From NCBI GenBank assembly GCA_023512435.1, contig JAILZP010000005.1:62001-126000 (forward strand): a DNA stretch of 64,000 bases, in the 5' to 3' direction. This stretch comes from Peptococcaceae bacterium (GTDB lineage: Bacteria > Bacillota > Desulfotomaculia > Desulfotomaculales > Desulfocucumaceae). Shown here piece after piece: positions 45,441 to 53,239 of this stretch (positions are counted from its first letter, which is position 1; every line of letters begins with the position of its first letter). The position numbers were made by a program, and so were the translations under genes. Below the pieces are notes generated by a model. The model did not search any database, had not been told where the DNA came from, and saw only the letters and a list, made by a program, of their open reading frames with translations.

Positions 45441-48107
45441 TTATCGCTCCGTCAAGAGGTAATTCAGCATGCTGTCCGCCAACGCCGCGCTCTCGGCCCT
45501 GGTGGCACCATCTCCGGGCCTGAATTTTTTATTGCTGTCCCCTTTCATTATCCCGGCGGCATATACCGCGGCCACGGGGTCTTTCGCCCAGGCCGGGACG
45601 TTCCCGCCGTCGGTGAAGACCTCGGCCAACCGCACTTTATCGCCCGGCGGCAGGGACAGGGCCCTGCCGATCATGACTGCCATTTCCGACCTGGTCACCT
45701 GGTTTGAGGGGCGGAAGGTACCGTCCTCGTAGCCCGACACAACTCCCCTCTTAACCGCCGCCAGGACATAGCCCCGCGACCAGTCCGGTATGGACCCGGC
45801 GTCCCGGAACCGGCCTTCACCCTGCCCCGGCTGCCATCCCAGAGCCCTGCAAAGCATGACCACAAATTCCGCCCTGCTGATCTTCCTGGCCGGGTCGAAT
45901 TTATTGCCGGGGTAGCCGCTGACCACGCCGGCCGCGGCCAGCCTGGACACCGGCCCGGCCGCCCAGTGGCCGGCCAGGTCGCTGAAAGCCGCCGGTGTCC
46001 GGCTGTCCCTGACCAGGGCCAGGGGGCCCGGTTCCCAGATCCGGCAAACCGCCAGGTTCTCCTGATCATTCACCCTGGACGGGATCTCCTGCCAACCGCC
46101 CCCCAGGAACTGCAGCACCGCCACCCGCCCGCCTTCTCCGGGCTGGAACTTCCATGTCAGGGCCGCCGGCTCCCCGAAGCCTGCCGGAGCCGCTTCGCCC
46201 GAAACCTGCAGGGTAACCGCCGAAAGGGACTTGCAGCCATCGGGAATGGGGCGGAAAAGTTCCCCGCCGTAAGCGGCCGAAACGGTAACCGGGCCGCTGA
46301 AGGCCCTGCCGCCGAAACTCAGGCTGAAATCCCCCAGGGTTACCGATCCCGGCTGGCCGGGAACGAATTGGCATGCTGCCTGGTCTTCAGGTTTTACTGT
46401 TACCGGCACCGCCGCCGAGTAATCCCCCAGGGTAATCTTTATCCGGCCCGCCGCCGGGGTATCCGCCGCCCTGAATATGCCGTTCTCCAGCCGCCCCAGT
46501 CCTGGGTCCACGGCGGCCGAATAGTTCTTGGGAGTAAGCGTGTAGACCGTTCCATACCGGTCCACGGCGCTGACCTTAAGTTCAACTGTTCCTCCCGGCT
46601 TAACCGCAATGGATGAAGGATCCACTGCGATCTTCATCAAATCTCCGGAACCGAGAACCCTGACGGTCTTGGCCGCCCTCATCCCGCCGGCCACGGCCGA
46701 GATGGCGGTCAGGCCGGGGTTGGCGGCAGTGAAAAAGCCGTTATTAATTGAACCCGGCCCCGAATCCACCGACAGCCTGACATTTTCCCGGTCAAGCGGG
46801 AAAGGGTTGAAATGGGAGTCGTAGCCCTTTACCTCCACCCTCACGCTGTCGCCGGGAAAAATCTGGTCGGGGCATCTAACTACCAGCCCGGCCAGGCTGC
46901 CCCGGGGAGCGGTGGAAAAGAACCCTATGGCAGTGGGCACCAGCCTCTCCGTCTCCCTCTGGGGCCGGTTGACAAGCACCGGCTTGTCCTCCCCCAGGGG
47001 CCTGGCCGCCAGGGTGGTGGATCCTCCCCCGTCGAGGTTCAGCGCCCGGTCAACCTTCAGCCCGGCCATGTACTCCGCCAGTTCGTTGAGGGTCACCCCC
47101 CTGCTGGCGGCGCTCTTTTCCACGGCGACAACAAAAAGGGTCTTTTTGTCCTTGGAATAACCGATGGCCGTTCTGGCATTGTATCCGTTAATGCTGGCGG
47201 GGAAGCTGCCCATTGCCCGCCCCCCGTCCACCAGGAGCGACCACCCGCCGGTGCCGGCCCAGATTTTGTCCCCCTCCGGCACAACCCTGTAATCCAGGGT
47301 AATTTTATCCCCCACCTTGATGTTGGCCTTTATGAAGTCCGCCGCGGTCCCCCTGCCGGCCAGGACAAAACCGTTCCGGGGAATGGCCTTTCCGGGCTGG
47401 TTGACCAGTATTTCGGCGACAGTGCCGTTATTTACAAAAACCTCGGTGACGCTGTCCTGGCTGTCGATCTTGCCCCTGCTGGACTCGCCCCAAAAACGGT
47501 CGTACACCAGAAGTGAATTTTCATGTGAATTTTTCTCCCCCGACTCGATGTACGAGGGCTTGTTTATCCCCGACAGGGGAAACTGGGCCCCGTTGCCGGC
47601 GGTCACCTTTCCGCTGAAACCGAAGACCTCTATCAACGGAACGCCGCTGCCGGTAATCGCCCAGCCAGGCATATCGTTCCTGAGGGGCGGGCTGGTGACC
47701 AGCCGGCCGTCTTTATAAGTCATCCCGATTGGCCTTCCGCTCTCGTTCATCTGGAAAAAGTCGGCGTTGACAGCGGCCACGGCCCCGGCGCTTTGCGCCA
47801 TGTCGGTCACCCTGGCGTTTTTATCGAGGGTTCCCCCGGCCCCCACCAGGGTGTTTATCCTTAAATAAGGGTTGGTCAGGTCGGCCCTCAGGGTGTAGAT
47901 CAAAACCTGCCCGTCATTGATGGTCACCGCCCGCTTTTCCAGGACCAGGCCCTCGGCCACCGGCCTGCTTTCCAAAACCCGTTCAGTCTGAATTTCCGCG
48001 GGGGCTGAGCGGGGAAAAACAAGCAGCAACGCGGCGGCAACAACCGCCGCCAGCACCGCCGGCCTGCCCGCCAGCGCCCTTCCGGTCAACAACTTTGTAA
48101 GCATCAT
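45441..48107 (-). CDS. SLH-anchored phosphodiester glycosidase (NAGPA/DUF2233) surface protein
   Basis: 888 residues. Signal peptide (1-38), a NAGPA/DUF2233 domain (about 95-400: AVNADFFQMNESGRPIGMTYKDGRLV, TAIGYSKDKKTLFVVAVEKS, ALNLDGGGSTTLAAR), two Big/Ig-like domains (about 400-580), and three SLH domains at the C-terminus (FSDLAGHWAAGPVSRLAAAGVVSGYPG, then FRDAGSIPDWSRGYVLAAVKRGVVSGY, then FTDGGNVPAWAKDPVAAVYAAGIM). NAGPA-like enzymes cleave phosphodiester-linked sugars; SLH modules bind secondary wall polymer. A cell-surface glycan enzyme is likely. ATG at 48107 with GGGGAGG ahead. Confidence 0.9.
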   Translation of the reverse strand: MMLTKLLTGRALAGRPAVLAAVVAAALLLVFPRSAPAEIQTERVLESRPVAEGLVLEKRAVTINDGQVLIYTLRADLTNPYLRINTLVGAGGTLDKNARVTDMAQSAGAVAAVNADFFQMNESGRPIGMTYKDGRLVTSPPLRNDMPGWAITGSGVPLIEVFGFSGKVTAGNGAQFPLSGINKPSYIESGEKNSHENSLLVYDRFWGESSRGKIDSQDSVTEVFVNNGTVAEILVNQPGKAIPRNGFVLAGRGTAADFIKANIKVGDKITLDYRVVPEGDKIWAGTGGWSLLVDGGRAMGSFPASINGYNARTAIGYSKDKKTLFVVAVEKSAASRGVTLNELAEYMAGLKVDRALNLDGGGSTTLAARPLGEDKPVLVNRPQRETERLVPTAIGFFSTAPRGSLAGLVVRCPDQIFPGDSVRVEVKGYDSHFNPFPLDRENVRLSVDSGPGSINNGFFTAANPGLTAISAVAGGMRAAKTVRVLGSGDLMKIAVDPSSIAVKPGGTVELKVSAVDRYGTVYTLTPKNYSAAVDPGLGRLENGIFRAADTPAAGRIKITLGDYSAAVPVTVKPEDQAACQFVPGQPGSVTLGDFSLSFGGRAFSGPVTVSAAYGGELFRPIPDGCKSLSAVTLQVSGEAAPAGFGEPAALTWKFQPGEGGRVAVLQFLGGGWQEIPSRVNDQENLAVCRIWEPGPLALVRDSRTPAAFSDLAGHWAAGPVSRLAAAGVVSGYPGNKFDPARKISRAEFVVMLCRALGWQPGQGEGRFRDAGSIPDWSRGYVLAAVKRGVVSGYEDGTFRPSNQVTRSEMAVMIGRALSLPPGDKVRLAEVFTDGGNVPAWAKDPVAAVYAAGIMKGDSNKKFRPGDGATRAESAALADSMLNYLLTER

Positions 48108-48195
48108 TACCTCCCCAGTATTGCCGTATTTTTGGTCCCAAAGGTTATATCCGCAGCCGGCCGCCCAATTTGGGCACCTGTTATGTTAGACGAAA

Positions 48196-48236
48196 TAAAA
48201 AAGGCAACGTCACCAAAATTTGACGTTGCCTATAAA
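48196..48236 (-). terminator. Terminator after the glycosyltransferase gene
   Basis: Perfect 11-bp stem AGGCAACGTCA (48202-48212) / TGACGTTGCCT (48221-48231) flanked by A and T tracts, bidirectional in form. Confidence 0.93.
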
Positions 48237-48271
48237 ATTCGACATATTTGTAAACAAACCTTCAAGGTAAA

Positions 48272-49543
48272 TTATTCCAGGGAGGTTATGGAAATCCCCC
48301 GGGTGTGCAGGGTATGGGCCCACTCGGACTGGTTGCCGTGCTTGATCAGTCCCACCAGGGTTACCGGAAACCAGGTCAGGCCGTAAATAGGGTAAGTTAT
48401 GTAATAGTAATACGCCTTGCGGGGGGCGCCTTCAAGAAATAGGCCCAGCATGGGATAACTGTATCCCAGAACCCCGAAAAGCACCCAGAACCATCCCGGC
48501 ATTAAGGCGGTCAACGGCGAGGCGTAAATGGGCTCCGGGAAGAAGGCGGCCACCAGGGTGATCAGCATATTGAACAACATGGTCATGATCAGAAAGGGCT
48601 GGAACAGATAAATGGCCCCGTCGATGGGGTACCATTTTTTCTCCCGGATACCCTTCCTGATCAGGGGGATCATGTAGCGCAGGGCAACGTCCCAGTGCCC
48701 TTGAAGCCAGCGGGTTCGCTGCCTCCAGGTCTGTGAAAAGTACACCGGCTTCTCGTCGTACACCTTGCAGTCGTGGGCCCAGGCCGTTTTGATCCCGTTG
48801 AGCAGGAGCTTCATGGTGAATTCAAGGTCCTCGGTCAGGCAGGTGGCCCCCCACCCGTACCTTTTCAACAATTGGTAGTCGAGGCAGAGGCCGGTTCCAC
48901 CGAGGGCGTTGGACAGCCCAAGGTTATACCTGGCCAGCTGCCACATCCGGTTCATGGACCAGTAAGCGGTGGCGTAACTGGCGGTAACCCACGAGTCGTT
49001 CGGGTTCTTGGTATCCAGGTAGCCCTGGATGGACTTGTAGCCCTGCTTTAATTTTGAATTCATTTCCAGCAGGAAGTTGGAAGACACAACGTTATCGGCG
49101 TCAAAAATGCAGACGGCATCATATTGCTTGTCTTCCATTTTATATAATTCGTTAAACATCCACTCCAGGGCAAACCCCTTGCCGCGCTTTTTCGAGTAGC
49201 GCTCAAAAACATTTACCCCTTCCTGGCGGGCCACCTCGGCGGTATTGTCCGAGCAGTTGTCTGCGATGATGTATATATCGTAAAGTTCCTTGGGATAATT
49301 CAGTTTCTTGAGACTTTCTATGTGATAGCGGATTACTGCTTCTTCGTTGTGGGCTGCGGTTATCAGGGCGAAGCGCTTGGTCGGAGTGTAGTCTTTTTCC
49401 TCGGTGTGCTTCTTCCAACCAAAAACAGACACGCAATAATAGTACATTAAAACAACAAGGATTACCGCTTCGGATATGGTAACCAGGGCTGTCAGGCCGT
49501 AGAACAACAAACCGTCCAAAGCATAACCCCTTTCTCCATGCAT
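48272..49543 (-). CDS. Membrane glycosyltransferase, family 2
   Basis: 423 residues. N-terminal helix (about 10-38), GT-A domain (50-290): ALITAAHNEEAVI, ICIFDADNVVSSNFL-type DAD metal site, GTGLCLDYQLLKRYGW, CLTEDLEFT, and the QRTRWLQGHW (QxxRW) motif of processive transferases; then four C-terminal helices. Resembles N-acetylglucosaminyltransferases that make surface polysaccharides. Lies upstream of the SLH protein gene, but a terminator separates them. The 316-bp gap to murE-like 3' end holds no recognised element. Confidence 0.9.
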   Translation of the reverse strand: MHGERGYALDGLLFYGLTALVTISEAVILVVLMYYYCVSVFGWKKHTEEKDYTPTKRFALITAAHNEEAVIRYHIESLKKLNYPKELYDIYIIADNCSDNTAEVARQEGVNVFERYSKKRGKGFALEWMFNELYKMEDKQYDAVCIFDADNVVSSNFLLEMNSKLKQGYKSIQGYLDTKNPNDSWVTASYATAYWSMNRMWQLARYNLGLSNALGGTGLCLDYQLLKRYGWGATCLTEDLEFTMKLLLNGIKTAWAHDCKVYDEKPVYFSQTWRQRTRWLQGHWDVALRYMIPLIRKGIREKKWYPIDGAIYLFQPFLIMTMLFNMLITLVAAFFPEPIYASPLTALMPGWFWVLFGVLGYSYPMLGLFLEGAPRKAYYYYITYPIYGLTWFPVTLVGLIKHGNQSEWAHTLHTRGISITSLE

Positions 49544-49859
49544 ATTTCCAGTATAGTTTGTCCTTTTTCTAGAAGCTTATTCCATTAAGCGTCCCGGCAT
49601 TCCTTCAGAATGAAAAAAATGGTAAATGGCCAACGCTGGTTATTCCCGTCAAAACAATAAACCCGTTTGAACTGTATTATCCCCTCCCCGCGGCCAGCAG
49701 TCTTCCCGGCCCGAAAAAAAACCGGCAACCTCGAACCAGGTCCTGGGTTTTATGGGATCATTTAAATACAAGTTTTATATTACCACTTACCGCCGGTACA
49801 GTCCAGACTTTTTGACTAATTTTTCCCCCGGCCCTCCCGGCGTCGGTTTTGGCAGCCGG
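49544..49859. other. Gap between the MurE-like and glycosyltransferase genes
   Basis: 316 bp. A run of eight A (49714-49721) and AT-rich flank up to 49,600 may hold the glycosyltransferase promoter; no clear terminator for the MurE-like gene was seen. Confidence 0.3.
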
Positions 49860-51368
49860 TTACCGCCCGCCCGCAGACGCCGGCGGCGCCTGGTACCTCT
49901 TCCGCAGCAGGGACACCACGACCTCCCTGTCGTTAAAGGGGACCTGCCTGTCAAAAAGCAACTGCACCGTCTCATGGCCCTTTCCGGCTATAAATACCAT
50001 GTCCCCCTCCCCGGCCAGCTCCAGGGCGGTTTTAATGGCCTCGTAGCGGTCGGTTATGATGTGGTAGTCACTGTTAATCCGTTTATTGTAACGCTTTAAA
50101 CCGGCTTCAATTTCCCCGGCCACTTTTTCCGGGCTTTCGCCGTACATGTTGTCGGTGGTTATGATGCTGATGTCGGCGTGTCTGGCGGCAACCTCCCCCA
50201 TAACCGGCCGCTTGGTCCTGTCCTTTCCCCCCTCGCAGCCAAAGACCACTATCTTCCTGGAACCCGGCTTCTTATCGCAATAGGTGATCAGCTTTTCCAG
50301 GCCGTCGGGGTTGTGGGCGAAGTCCACCACAACGGTAAAGGGCTGCCCGCAGTCTATTTTTTCAAACCTGCCGGGAACACCGGCCAGGCTCATCAGCCCC
50401 TTTTTCACCAGATCCATGTCAATCTGCCGGAAATGGGCATAGGAGATTGACGCCAGGGCATTGTACACGTTGGCCTTTCCGGGCATATTCAGGTGGATTC
50501 TGGAATAATAACCGTTTTTAATATCCAGGTCGAAGGAACACCTGTCGGTGCCGAGGGTTATATTGTAGGCCCTGATATCGGCCGGGCCGTCTATTCCGTA
50601 CGTAATCACCGGTATGGACACCCGGCCGGCGAGGGAAAGGCCGTGGGGGTCGTCGGCGTTGAGAATGGCCGCTTTCTTCTGCTTTGAACCCCCGGCGGCG
50701 GTCATTTCAAAAAGCTTGAATTTGGAAGCCAGGTAACTCTCATGGTCCTTGTGAAAGTCAAAGTGATCATGGGTGATATTAGACAGTATGGCGGCGTCAA
50801 ACTCGCACCCGTCCACCCGGTTCAGGTCCAGGGCGTGGGACGACACCTCCATGACCACGGCTTCCACCCCGGCGTCCACCATGTCCCGCAAAATTTTCTG
50901 CAGCTTGATCGAATCGGGGGTCGTCCTTTCGGACCGGAAAATTTTGTCCATGTACCTGTAGTTGATGGTTCCTATAACGCCGGTGTTTACCCCGGCCGCC
51001 TTCAATATGGCCTCGATCATGAAGGTTATGGTTGTTTTTCCGTTTGTCCCGGTCACGCCCACCATTTCCAAAAGCGAAGTGGGGTTGCCGTAAAAAAAGC
51101 TTCCTGCTTTGGCCTGGGCTGCCCGGGAGTCGTCCACGAAGAGCTTCGGGCACCGGCAGGGAACATCCCTTTCCAGCACCAGCGCCACCGCCCCTCTTTC
51201 CAGCGCCTCCGGGGCATACTTATGCCCGTCGGTTTTAAGTCCGGGAACGCAGATAAACAGGGAACCCTCTCTGACCTCTTTGGAGTTGTTGGTAATATGG
51301 GTGATTTCCAGGGACAGGTCGCCTTCAGGCCTTGCGCCGATGGCCCCGCACAGATCAGACAGCAGCAT
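49860..51368 (-). CDS. MurE-like Mur ligase with altered DNPR motif
   Basis: 502 residues. Full Mur-ligase layout: N-terminal UDP-MurNAc-binding-like domain (NNSKEVREGSLFICVPG), P-loop GVTGTNGKTT (about 107), MEVSSHALDLNRV, ILSNITHDHFDFHKD, then DFAHNPDGLEKL and VFGCEGGKDRTKRPVMG, ending GDMVFIAGKGHETVQ. The motif that recognises meso-diaminopimelate in MurE (DNPR) is DNMY here (TTDNMYGESPEKV). It is far from any mur cluster. It may add a different amino acid or work in a different polymer; murE itself is not excluded. ATG 51368 with GGAGGAG. Confidence 0.82.
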   Translation of the reverse strand: MLLSDLCGAIGARPEGDLSLEITHITNNSKEVREGSLFICVPGLKTDGHKYAPEALERGAVALVLERDVPCRCPKLFVDDSRAAQAKAGSFFYGNPTSLLEMVGVTGTNGKTTITFMIEAILKAAGVNTGVIGTINYRYMDKIFRSERTTPDSIKLQKILRDMVDAGVEAVVMEVSSHALDLNRVDGCEFDAAILSNITHDHFDFHKDHESYLASKFKLFEMTAAGGSKQKKAAILNADDPHGLSLAGRVSIPVITYGIDGPADIRAYNITLGTDRCSFDLDIKNGYYSRIHLNMPGKANVYNALASISYAHFRQIDMDLVKKGLMSLAGVPGRFEKIDCGQPFTVVVDFAHNPDGLEKLITYCDKKPGSRKIVVFGCEGGKDRTKRPVMGEVAARHADISIITTDNMYGESPEKVAGEIEAGLKRYNKRINSDYHIITDRYEAIKTALELAGEGDMVFIAGKGHETVQLLFDRQVPFNDREVVVSLLRKRYQAPPASAGGR

Positions 51369-51537
51369 TCTTCACAGACTCCTCCGGATTTTATTACAGG
51401 TTCCCCGGCAGATCGGCCGACTTCGCAAGCAAACCCCGTCACTGCAGGAGAATCTCTTTATATTTCAACATTGCTTGGAGGATTCCTTCTAAATTATGAT
51501 CCGGTGTATTCCCGCTTATTCTGAAAAAGGGATTGTT

Positions 51538-51555
51538 ACATAAAGTACATTATGT
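51538..51555. promoter_or_regulatory. Palindrome upstream of the TauE gene
   Basis: ACATAA-AGTACA-TTATGT, perfect 6-bp arms, centred 58 bp upstream of the TauE start. A possible repressor site; no named regulator fits. Confidence 0.4.
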
Positions 51556-51604
51556 TAGCATTAAATCACAGACAGGTGAGCAACGAGGGAGAGTGTCAGG
51601 AGAT

Positions 51605-52573
51605 ATGTTATTACCGGTTTCAGGCGTGGAGGTAAACCCCTTAATTCCGCCCCTGGTGGCTTTTCTGGTATCTACAATGACCGCCCCGGCAGGGGTATCG
51701 GGAGCCTTTTTGCTGCTTCCGTTCCAGATGAGCGTCCTCAATTTCACCAGCCCGGCGGTCAGCCCTACAAACCTCATCTACAATATTGTGGCCATACCCG
51801 GAGGGCTGTACCGGTACATAAAGGAGGGGCGCATGGCCTGGCCCCTGACCTGGGTGGTGGTGGCCGGAACCCTGCCCGGGGTTTTCATCGGATCATGGGT
51901 AAGAATAGAGTATCTGCCCGACCCCAGGGCCTTCAAACTGTTCGTGGGCCTGGTGCTGCTCTACCTGGGCCTGAGGCTGGCCTCCGAATTCAGCAGCGGG
52001 TCAAAAAGCAAAAAGGCCCAAAACAAGGCCCTGGAACAGAAATTCAAGGCCCGGGTGGACCAGCTGAAGGCGGAGTCGAATCAAAAGCTGGCCGCCGGAC
52101 TGCCCCCGGAGGCCATAGTAAAAACAAAAAGCTTTTCGTTAAAAACAATAGAGTATGAATTTTGGGGCGAAACCTACTCCTTTCCCACCGCCGCCATCTT
52201 TACCCTGGCTCTGGCGGTGGGCCTGATCGGGGGGATATACGGAATAGGGGGCGGGGCTATCATCGCGCCTTTCTGCGTTTCCATTCTCAACCTCCCGGTG
52301 TACACCGTGGCGGGAGCCGCCCTGGCCGGCACCCTGATCACCTCGGTGGCGGGGGTGGTGTTTTACTCCCTGCTGGCCCTCACGCCAATCGGCGCATCGG
52401 CCAATGTTTCTCCGGACTGGGCGCTGGGAGCCCTGTTCGGAGCGGGGGGGCTTCTGGGCACGTACTGCGGGGCTTATGTCCAGAAATACCTCAGGGAAGG
52501 CCTGGTTAAGGGGATCATGGCGGCCCTCATTCTCTTCCTGGCACTGCGCTACATTATCCAGTTCTTTGTCTAG
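51605..52573 (+). CDS. TauE/SafE-family anion permease
   Basis: 322 residues from ATG 51605 (AGGAG just 2 bp before; the reading frame also extends upstream). Two repeats of TauE-type helices: LIPPLVAFLVSTMTAPAGVSGAFLLLPF and AIFTLALAVGLIGGIYGIGGGAIIAPF, carrying the GhxGGGG-like pattern. Between them, about residues 100-170, lies an unusual charged, coiled-coil-like loop (SKKAQNKALEQKFKARVDQLKAESNQKL). Probable exporter of sulfite, sulfoacetate or a similar anion; substrate uncertain. Confidence 0.86.
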   Translation: MLLPVSGVEVNPLIPPLVAFLVSTMTAPAGVSGAFLLLPFQMSVLNFTSPAVSPTNLIYNIVAIPGGLYRYIKEGRMAWPLTWVVVAGTLPGVFIGSWVRIEYLPDPRAFKLFVGLVLLYLGLRLASEFSSGSKSKKAQNKALEQKFKARVDQLKAESNQKLAAGLPPEAIVKTKSFSLKTIEYEFWGETYSFPTAAIFTLALAVGLIGGIYGIGGGAIIAPFCVSILNLPVYTVAGAALAGTLITSVAGVVFYSLLALTPIGASANVSPDWALGALFGAGGLLGTYCGAYVQKYLREGLVKGIMAALILFLALRYIIQFFV

Positions 52574-52675
52574 TGCGGCACAAAAAATGGCCGGAATGGA
52601 CAAACCAGGTCCATTCCGGCCGGAGGATGGTTAGCCGTGGGCCCGGCAGAGGGCGTGCCCGCCGCCGGAAACCGG

Positions 52676-53239
52676 CTATCCGGCTTTGCACTGCCTGGCT
52701 ATTGTCCGCACCGCCCGGGAACCTTCCAGCATGGCCTGCCTGTTGGCCGGCAGGGTATGGCGGCGGTGCGGGGAGATCACTTTTTCCAGTGCCTTTATGA
52801 CTGAATCCGGCGACAGCAGTCCGGTCGCCTCCAGGAAGCCCCCCAGCATGACCATGTTGGCCGCCCGGTCCAGCCCCGCCCTGGCCGCCAGTTCATTGGC
52901 CGGGACCGGGAAAAGCCGGATATCACTGCGCTGCGGGTATTCCCTGATCAGGGAGGAGTTAAACAGCAGCAGCCCGCCCGGTTTAATCCTTTTTTCAAAT
53001 TTATGCAGGGAAGGCCGGTTGAAAATGAGGGCCGAAGAAAACTGTTCCACCACCGGTGAAAAGATTTCCTCATCGGAGATTATGGTGGTGCAGTGGGCGG
53101 TCCCGCCGCGCATTTCCGCCCCGTAGGAAGGAATCCAGGCCACTTCCCTGTTCTCCAGCATGCCGGCGTAGGCCAGCAGATGCCCGGTAAGCAGAACGCC
53201 CTGGCCGCCGAAGCCGGCCACTAAAATTTCCTCCAGCAT
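52676..53239 (-). CDS. vorC: 2-oxoacid:ferredoxin oxidoreductase, gamma subunit
   Basis: 187 residues, starting MLEEILVAGFGGQGVLLTGHLLAYAG, the GFGGQGV CoA-domain signature of gamma subunits, with WIPSYGAEMRGGTAHCTTIIS. Forms the third catalytic chain of the four-subunit enzyme with vorD-B-A upstream. Last gene of the operon; 3-bp gap after the beta gene. Confidence 0.93.
   Translation of the reverse strand: MLEEILVAGFGGQGVLLTGHLLAYAGMLENREVAWIPSYGAEMRGGTAHCTTIISDEEIFSPVVEQFSSALIFNRPSLHKFEKRIKPGGLLLFNSSLIREYPQRSDIRLFPVPANELAARAGLDRAANMVMLGGFLEATGLLSPDSVIKALEKVISPHRRHTLPANRQAMLEGSRAVRTIARQCKAG

Follow-up and report, generated by a model that had tools for sequence, protein, structure and literature searches.

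A second MurE-type ligase with both carboxylate-binding arginines replaced in a Peptococcaceae bacterium and other Bacillota

We analysed a 64,000-nucleotide stretch of contig JAILZP010000005.1 from a Peptococcaceae bacterium (assembly GCA_023512435.1, positions 62,001 to 126,000), hereafter the window, which carries a gene for a MurE-type ligase that we designate murE2. The gene, its motifs and its immediate neighbours are as follows.

48272 to 49543, minus strand: GT2 glycosyltransferase, a neighbour only, present in related genomes without murE2
49722 to 49739, minus strand: weak terminator-like stem and T-run downstream of murE2, which fits a single-gene transcript
49860 to 51368, minus strand: murE2, MurE-type ligase of 502 amino acids, assigned from the open reading frame list, TIGR01085, three Mur_ligase Pfam domains, and a structural model with its fold
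49971 to 49985, minus strand: GKGHE, intact, with the G464 and E468 contacts
50130 to 50153, minus strand: DNMYGESP in place of DNPRxExP; R416 (E. coli) lost, D413 and N414 equivalents kept
50220 to 50240, minus strand: GCEGGKD, where DNPR enzymes have GCGGDRD; Lys replaces R389 (E. coli), which contacts the L-centre carboxylate
50304 to 50327, minus strand: VDFAHNPD in place of VDYAHTPD; its final Asp corresponds in the alignment to D356 of S. aureus, a published ATP contact
50721 to 50723, minus strand: K216, equivalent of the carbamylated lysine, intact (role as given in PMC9434261)
50817 to 50849, minus strand: EVSSHALDLNR, which contacts the UDP-MurNAc-dipeptide and retains Ser and Arg
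50916 to 50924, minus strand: TTP, UDP-MurNAc-dipeptide contact, intact
51030 to 51053, minus strand: P-loop TGTNGKTT, intact
51379 to 51385, minus strand: GGAGGAG, a likely ribosome-binding site that precedes the murE2 ATG by 10 bases and is found also in the genus-mate genome G001
51533 to 52573, plus strand: TauE/SafE transporter, divergent neighbour and other edge of the insertion

The murE2 reading frame is complete, with an ATG start, and its product contains all three Mur-ligase domains (PF01225, PF08245 and PF02875) and scores 464.7 bits against the MurE model TIGR01085, above the cut-off of 257.3. An AlphaFold model of the protein (mean pLDDT 89.9, pTM 0.90) returned MurE structures as all of its seven best structural matches, led by 2xja_B with a Z score of 45.6 and an rmsd of 2.3 over 480 residues. 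The motifs that contact ATP and the UDP-MurNAc-dipeptide are present, S29 included. The preliminary description of a stand-alone MurE relative with a DNMY motif and intact ligase motifs was thus borne out, the TTDNMYGESP stretch falling at residues 404 to 413. Across four upstream regions, no convincing sigma-factor site was found, the sole match being one sigma-70-like site in another host, G375, and positions 48000 to 52700 of the window gave no Rfam match at the gathering score. Terminator-like sites number 12 in the region against a mean of 4.7 in shuffled sequence, which is not proof of termination. Upstream of the gene, positions 51434 to 51492 are conserved between the window genome (G000) and G001 and, in the window, contain a tiny reading frame.

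As had been noted from the sequence beforehand, murE2 lies outside any mur cluster; it stands between the GT2 glycosyltransferase and the TauE/SafE transporter, and an S-layer/phosphodiester-glycosidase (NAGPA/SLH) gene is also near. Two genomes of the same family, G002 and G005, have the order NAGPA/SLH, GT2, TauE without murE2, and the GT2 protein is 84-85% identical in G002, G004 and G005. murE2 looks like a single-gene lateral acquisition into an existing block, and the GT2 and S-layer/NAGPA genes were rejected as its partners because G002 and G005 hold the block without it. In G001, a short TauE-like stretch, perhaps a remnant, lies beside murE2 (L193 9874-10239; 51% identity over 127 amino acids).

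MurE determines which amino acid occupies position three of the peptidoglycan stem, and one such residue is normally assumed per bacterium; MurE enzymes that add meso-diaminopimelate (meso-DAP) are EC 6.3.2.13, and those that add L-lysine are EC 6.3.2.7. The window genome (3.18 Mb in 80 contigs, 88% complete) encodes a canonical MurE of 499 amino acids with the motif DNPRTENP beside MurF on contig C12. A search for a second MurE with DNPR, which the preliminary description had advised, therefore succeeded. A sole MurE in the genome, together with a wall of ordinary meso-DAP, was what that description would have taken as refuting its reading, and murE2 is not the only MurE of its genome.

Additional MurE-like copies, which fall into several motif classes, are no rarity among Bacillota. 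In the class, 5 of 94 genomes give two MurE matches at E <= 1e-80, and at least two at E <= 1e-60 occur in 41 of the 398 genomes of a phylum sample, G000 and G025 among them, when three candidates per genome are scored. Thirteen alignment rows lack the Glu of GKGHE and represent a more distant MurE-like type rather than true extra MurEs, and the three MurE matches of G139 include two pieces of one gene. Plasmid records with MurE relatives number 67, all below 60% identity. Other second-MurE groups carry DNCR, DSPY or DDLN motifs (L043, L169, L173; L137, L175; L141, L142, L146), and G311 (L167) has a second MurE with DNPK in which Ser stands in place of R389 (NSD), a likeness to the Thermotoga maritima enzyme at this residue. 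G404 has two similar dcw clusters on separate contigs (L157, L158). A MurE closely similar to those of Clostridia is encoded on the contig L056, which is labelled as a Methanophagales archaeon, probably through a binning error.

The ratio dN/dS is 0.125 for the murE2 pair of G000 and G001, against 0.234 for the canonical MurE pair, and murE2 is under purifying selection. Given this low ratio and a start region that both genomes have preserved, murE2 is very probably a working gene. It is extremely unlikely that MurE2 is a decaying or non-catalytic relic of gene transfer: the copy in G139 is split into two reading frames, as such a relic might be, but the catalytic motifs are intact in MurE2, the dN/dS is low and the start region has been kept. 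The G139 split (L145 3510-5008) reflects a genuine interruption of the gene or else a fault in the assembly.

The altered motif is part of a signature found in six intact proteins, that of the window included, and in the split seventh. Lys at the R389 position (390 in UniProt numbering) together with DNxx without Pro or Arg occurs in five rows of a 156-row alignment, namely the window protein and those of G001, G375, G419 and G015; the G001 protein also has DNMY and is 84% identical to MurE2. Searched as a DNA pattern, GCEGxKD occurs in 2 of 29 genomes of the class of G419 (G419 and G572), in 1 of 97 of the class of G375 (G375 itself) and in 4 of the 398 genomes of the phylum sample (G000, G139, G375 and G419), where a reversed-pattern control gave zeros in the columns printed. 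The members span five family codes (f1, f9, f61, f104 and f131), with G139 in f61 and G375 in f131. The five members then known formed one clade with an SH-aLRT of 98 in a tree of 141 rows built without the motif columns. In a more careful tree of 52 rows, six members form a clade (99/96) to which the T/DDPY enzyme of G252 is sister (91/82), and the member of G015 falls outside; keeping the seven together raises the log-likelihood by 7.26, and the resulting tree is not rejected (p-AU 0.691). A DNPR MurE is also present in the clade hosts G000, G001, G015, G139, G375 and G419.

According to PMC9434261, R389 of MurE (E. coli numbering) binds the L-centre carboxylate of the added amino acid and R416 binds both carboxylates, while D413, N414, G464 and E468 contact the D-centre. 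Both carboxylate-binding arginines are replaced in all six intact members, R389 by Lys and R416 by Tyr, Asn or His, and the equivalents of D413, N414, G464 and E468 are kept throughout. We screened for discriminating positions, defined as those with one residue in more than 75% of 118 DNPR enzymes and with the clade residues in less than 8% of them, using the six intact members and leaving the split G139 copy aside; eight positions separated the two sets (window residues 350, 353, 379, 381, 382, 408, 409 and 479). Five of the eight (379, 381, 382, 408 and 409) fall in the two segments for which contacts to the incoming amino acid have been published. Residues 350 and 353 sit in the VDYAHTPD segment beside the ATP contact, and 479 is near the C-terminus. 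The clade changes GCGGDRD by G386E, D388G/E and R389K, and VDYAHTPD by Y to F and T to N. The Phe of VDFAHNPD is found in 6 of 6 clade members against Tyr in 118 of 118 DNPR enzymes, its Asn in 6 of 6 against Thr in 109 of 118, and the Glu of GCEGGKD in 6 of 6 against Gly in 117 of 118. Lys at the R389 position likewise contrasts (6 of 6) with Arg in all 118 DNPR enzymes, which were picked for Arg there, and Arg occupies this position in 147 of the 156 alignment rows. Since G001 shares the motif at 84% identity, the dN/dS is 0.125 against 0.234, and the coupled changes recur in distant relatives, the motif change is not a matter of chance. As judged from alignment to the published contacts, the predicted amino-acid site is altered consistently across the clade. 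The preliminary view that the residue block selecting the added amino acid is changed therefore holds across the clade, with the qualification that this block is only one of several coupled changes.

By contrast, the UDP-MurNAc-dipeptide site has no position that sets the six clade members apart from the 118 DNPR enzymes; H44, N157 and Q191 (UniProt numbering) differ between E. coli and MurE2, yet they do not distinguish the clade either. This bears on the possibility that MurE2 acts on another acceptor or, as the preliminary description had already suggested, another polymer, for instance together with the neighbouring glycosyltransferase. A lone gene beside a glycosyltransferase and an S-layer/phosphodiester-glycosidase gene could be read in that way, but G002 and G005 have the glycosyltransferase block and no murE2 in it, and the neighbours of murE2 vary by lineage, except for FemAB and spermidine-synthase-like genes in G375 and G139 and a MarR/FabF pair in G419 and G572. 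With a dipeptide site that is not distinctive, and with a FemAB-family gene near murE2 in two relatives (G375 and G139), a polymer other than peptidoglycan is unsupported, and we regard this alternative as very unlikely.

MurE2 has the fold of the meso-DAP enzymes of E. coli (1e8c) and M. tuberculosis (2wtz/2xja), with a Z score of 41.5 to 1e8c_A beside that of 45.6 to 2xja_B, and has in common with them the ATP-site and dipeptide-site motifs and the D413, N414, G464 and E468 equivalents. It differs from them in having Lys for R389, Tyr for R416, Met for the Pro that precedes R416 and GCEGG for GCGGD, and in being a second copy outside the dcw cluster. Thus, neither the Arg of DNPR (R416) nor R389, the marks of a meso-DAP enzyme, is present in the window protein. 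As described in PMC3829189, the L-Lys MurE of S. aureus lacks a counterpart of R416, its Asp406 and Glu460 bind the amine of the lysine, and the introduction of Arg into its motif gave no DAP activity, which means that the motif alone does not fix specificity. MurE2 resembles the S. aureus enzyme (4c12/4c13; Z 43.7 to 4c13) in having no Arg at the fourth DNPx position: the Asp406, Asn407 and Glu460 anchors are present, and Tyr rather than Arg stands at position 409. It departs from it in that the S. aureus enzyme has Ala at the fourth position and retains Arg (R383) where MurE2 has Lys, a conservative change; the MurE2 site is therefore not simply of the Lys type.

MurE2 scores 513.6 bits against the DAP-ligase model NF001126 (cut-off 373), and 303.2 bits against the L-lysine ligase model NF010628, short of its cut-off of 536. 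Automatic names are unsafe here, because MurE2 passes a curated DAP-ligase model though both carboxylate-binding arginines are replaced. The NF001126 score is nevertheless what one would expect if MurE2 were a redundant meso-DAP ligase, that is, an acquired paralogue with other contacts to meso-DAP that perhaps acts under other conditions such as sporulation. The positive charge retained as Lys at the R389 position also agrees with such a role, as does the presence of spoIVA in 7 of 7 murE2 hosts, although the latter does not discriminate because it comes with no baseline of related genomes lacking murE2. Against this stand the replacement of both DAP-carboxylate arginines in all six intact members and the use of R416 by mDAP enzymes for the D-centre carboxylate, as stated in PMC3829189, and we consider a redundant meso-DAP ligase unlikely.

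MurE from T. maritima (4bub), which accepts L-Lys, D-Lys and meso-DAP, attaches D-lysine in an inverted linkage. Among solved relatives it gives the top sequence score for the window MurE2 (325.9 bits), and it has VDFAH in common with MurE2 and likewise no Arg at the R389 position; MurE2 might accordingly add an amino acid that is inverted or unusual in some other way, for example D-lysine. However, the T. maritima enzyme keeps the Arg of DDPR and has lost R389, which is Ser rather than Lys, the opposite emphasis to that of the clade. It is not on the nearest branch, and the tree does not join it with the clade. Its first rank is not decisive because it ranks only fourth for the MurE2 of G375 and eighth for the canonical MurE. 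A D-lysine-like product is accordingly a distinctly improbable alternative.

The FemAB family is of the peptidoglycan cross-bridge type. In G375, a spermidine-synthase-like gene and then a FemAB gene lie directly upstream of murE2 (L187 13129-16811), and in G139, murE2 is followed by a spermidine-synthase-like gene and then FemAB (L145 1401-5008), so that both genomes combine the same three kinds of gene, in differing orders. The two FemAB proteins score 164.8 (G375) and 161.9 bits (G139) against the Pfam model; the best NCBIfam match of the former is the lysine N6-alanyltransferase FemX, below the cut-off (121.7 of 500 bits). Of 22 variant MurE loci, 6 have a FemAB gene no more than 5 kb away, as against 0 of 38 DNPR loci (Fisher p 0.0015; loci that are related do not count as independent). 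The count used a model of nine FemAB genes from Pfam-found loci, chosen by similarity to the G375 FemAB, over loci with at least 4 kb of flank, which sets aside, among others, those of G398 (which has FemAB) and G419. FemAB is near murE2 in two of the seven clade members. At E <= 1e-5 it was not found in G000 (an 88% complete genome), G001, G015 or G419, and G572 has only a weak match on another contig, for which reason FemAB was rejected as an obligatory partner of MurE2. In the class of the window genome, 17 of 94 genomes have FemAB, none of them a murE2 host.

FemAB also adjoins five of seven other extra MurE loci, with DNPA or DNPE motifs (L163, L165, L139, L140 and L143 in G355, G186, G155, G192 and G398, respectively), in genomes that encode a DNPR MurE as well. 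These enzymes resemble MurE2 in being extra to a DNPR MurE and in the FemAB neighbour, and differ from it in lying on other tree branches and in keeping R389. The arrangement suggests that a DNPA/DNPE MurE and FemAB form a two-gene alternative stem-peptide module in Bacillota.

Collectively, we lean towards the explanation that MurE2 is a second, laterally acquired UDP-MurNAc-dipeptide ligase that adds a non-DAP L-diamino acid, most likely L-lysine, a substrate that we infer. The odds of this explanation rest on the two replaced arginines. MurE2 would use ATP to activate UDP-MurNAc-L-Ala-D-Glu, like any MurE. The L-centre carboxylate of the incoming amino acid would be held by Lys instead of Arg and its side-chain amine by the kept Asp, Asn and Glu anchors; the amino acid would be an L-diamino acid in the normal orientation, without the second carboxylate that meso-DAP has. 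In a wall of the DAP type, the peptide made would form a minority of the stem peptides, and in relatives with a FemAB-type enzyme, that enzyme could extend it. Several results count against this explanation, among them that the cut-off of NF010628 is not reached while that of NF001126 is, that two of the eight discriminating positions lie beside the ATP contact and not at the amino acid, and that the member of G015 is placed outside the other six in the careful tree.

In the titles and abstracts of the literature matches listed for second MurE, FemAB/FemX and Desulfovirgula peptidoglycan, we found no description of the MurE2 subfamily. We tentatively propose, as a plausible rather than an established model, that MurE2 represents an undescribed MurE subfamily, acquired as a second copy in spore-forming Bacillota that have a DNPR MurE, which makes an additional stem peptide whose third residue is not DAP, and that FemAB and spermidine-synthase-like neighbours elaborate this peptide in some hosts. 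A MurE with changed contacts that stands beside a DNPR enzyme and recurs in unrelated lineages, in two cases near FemAB, makes the existence of two stem-peptide types per cell directly testable. If the proposal is true, peptidoglycan precursors of two different chemical kinds would occur in a single cell.
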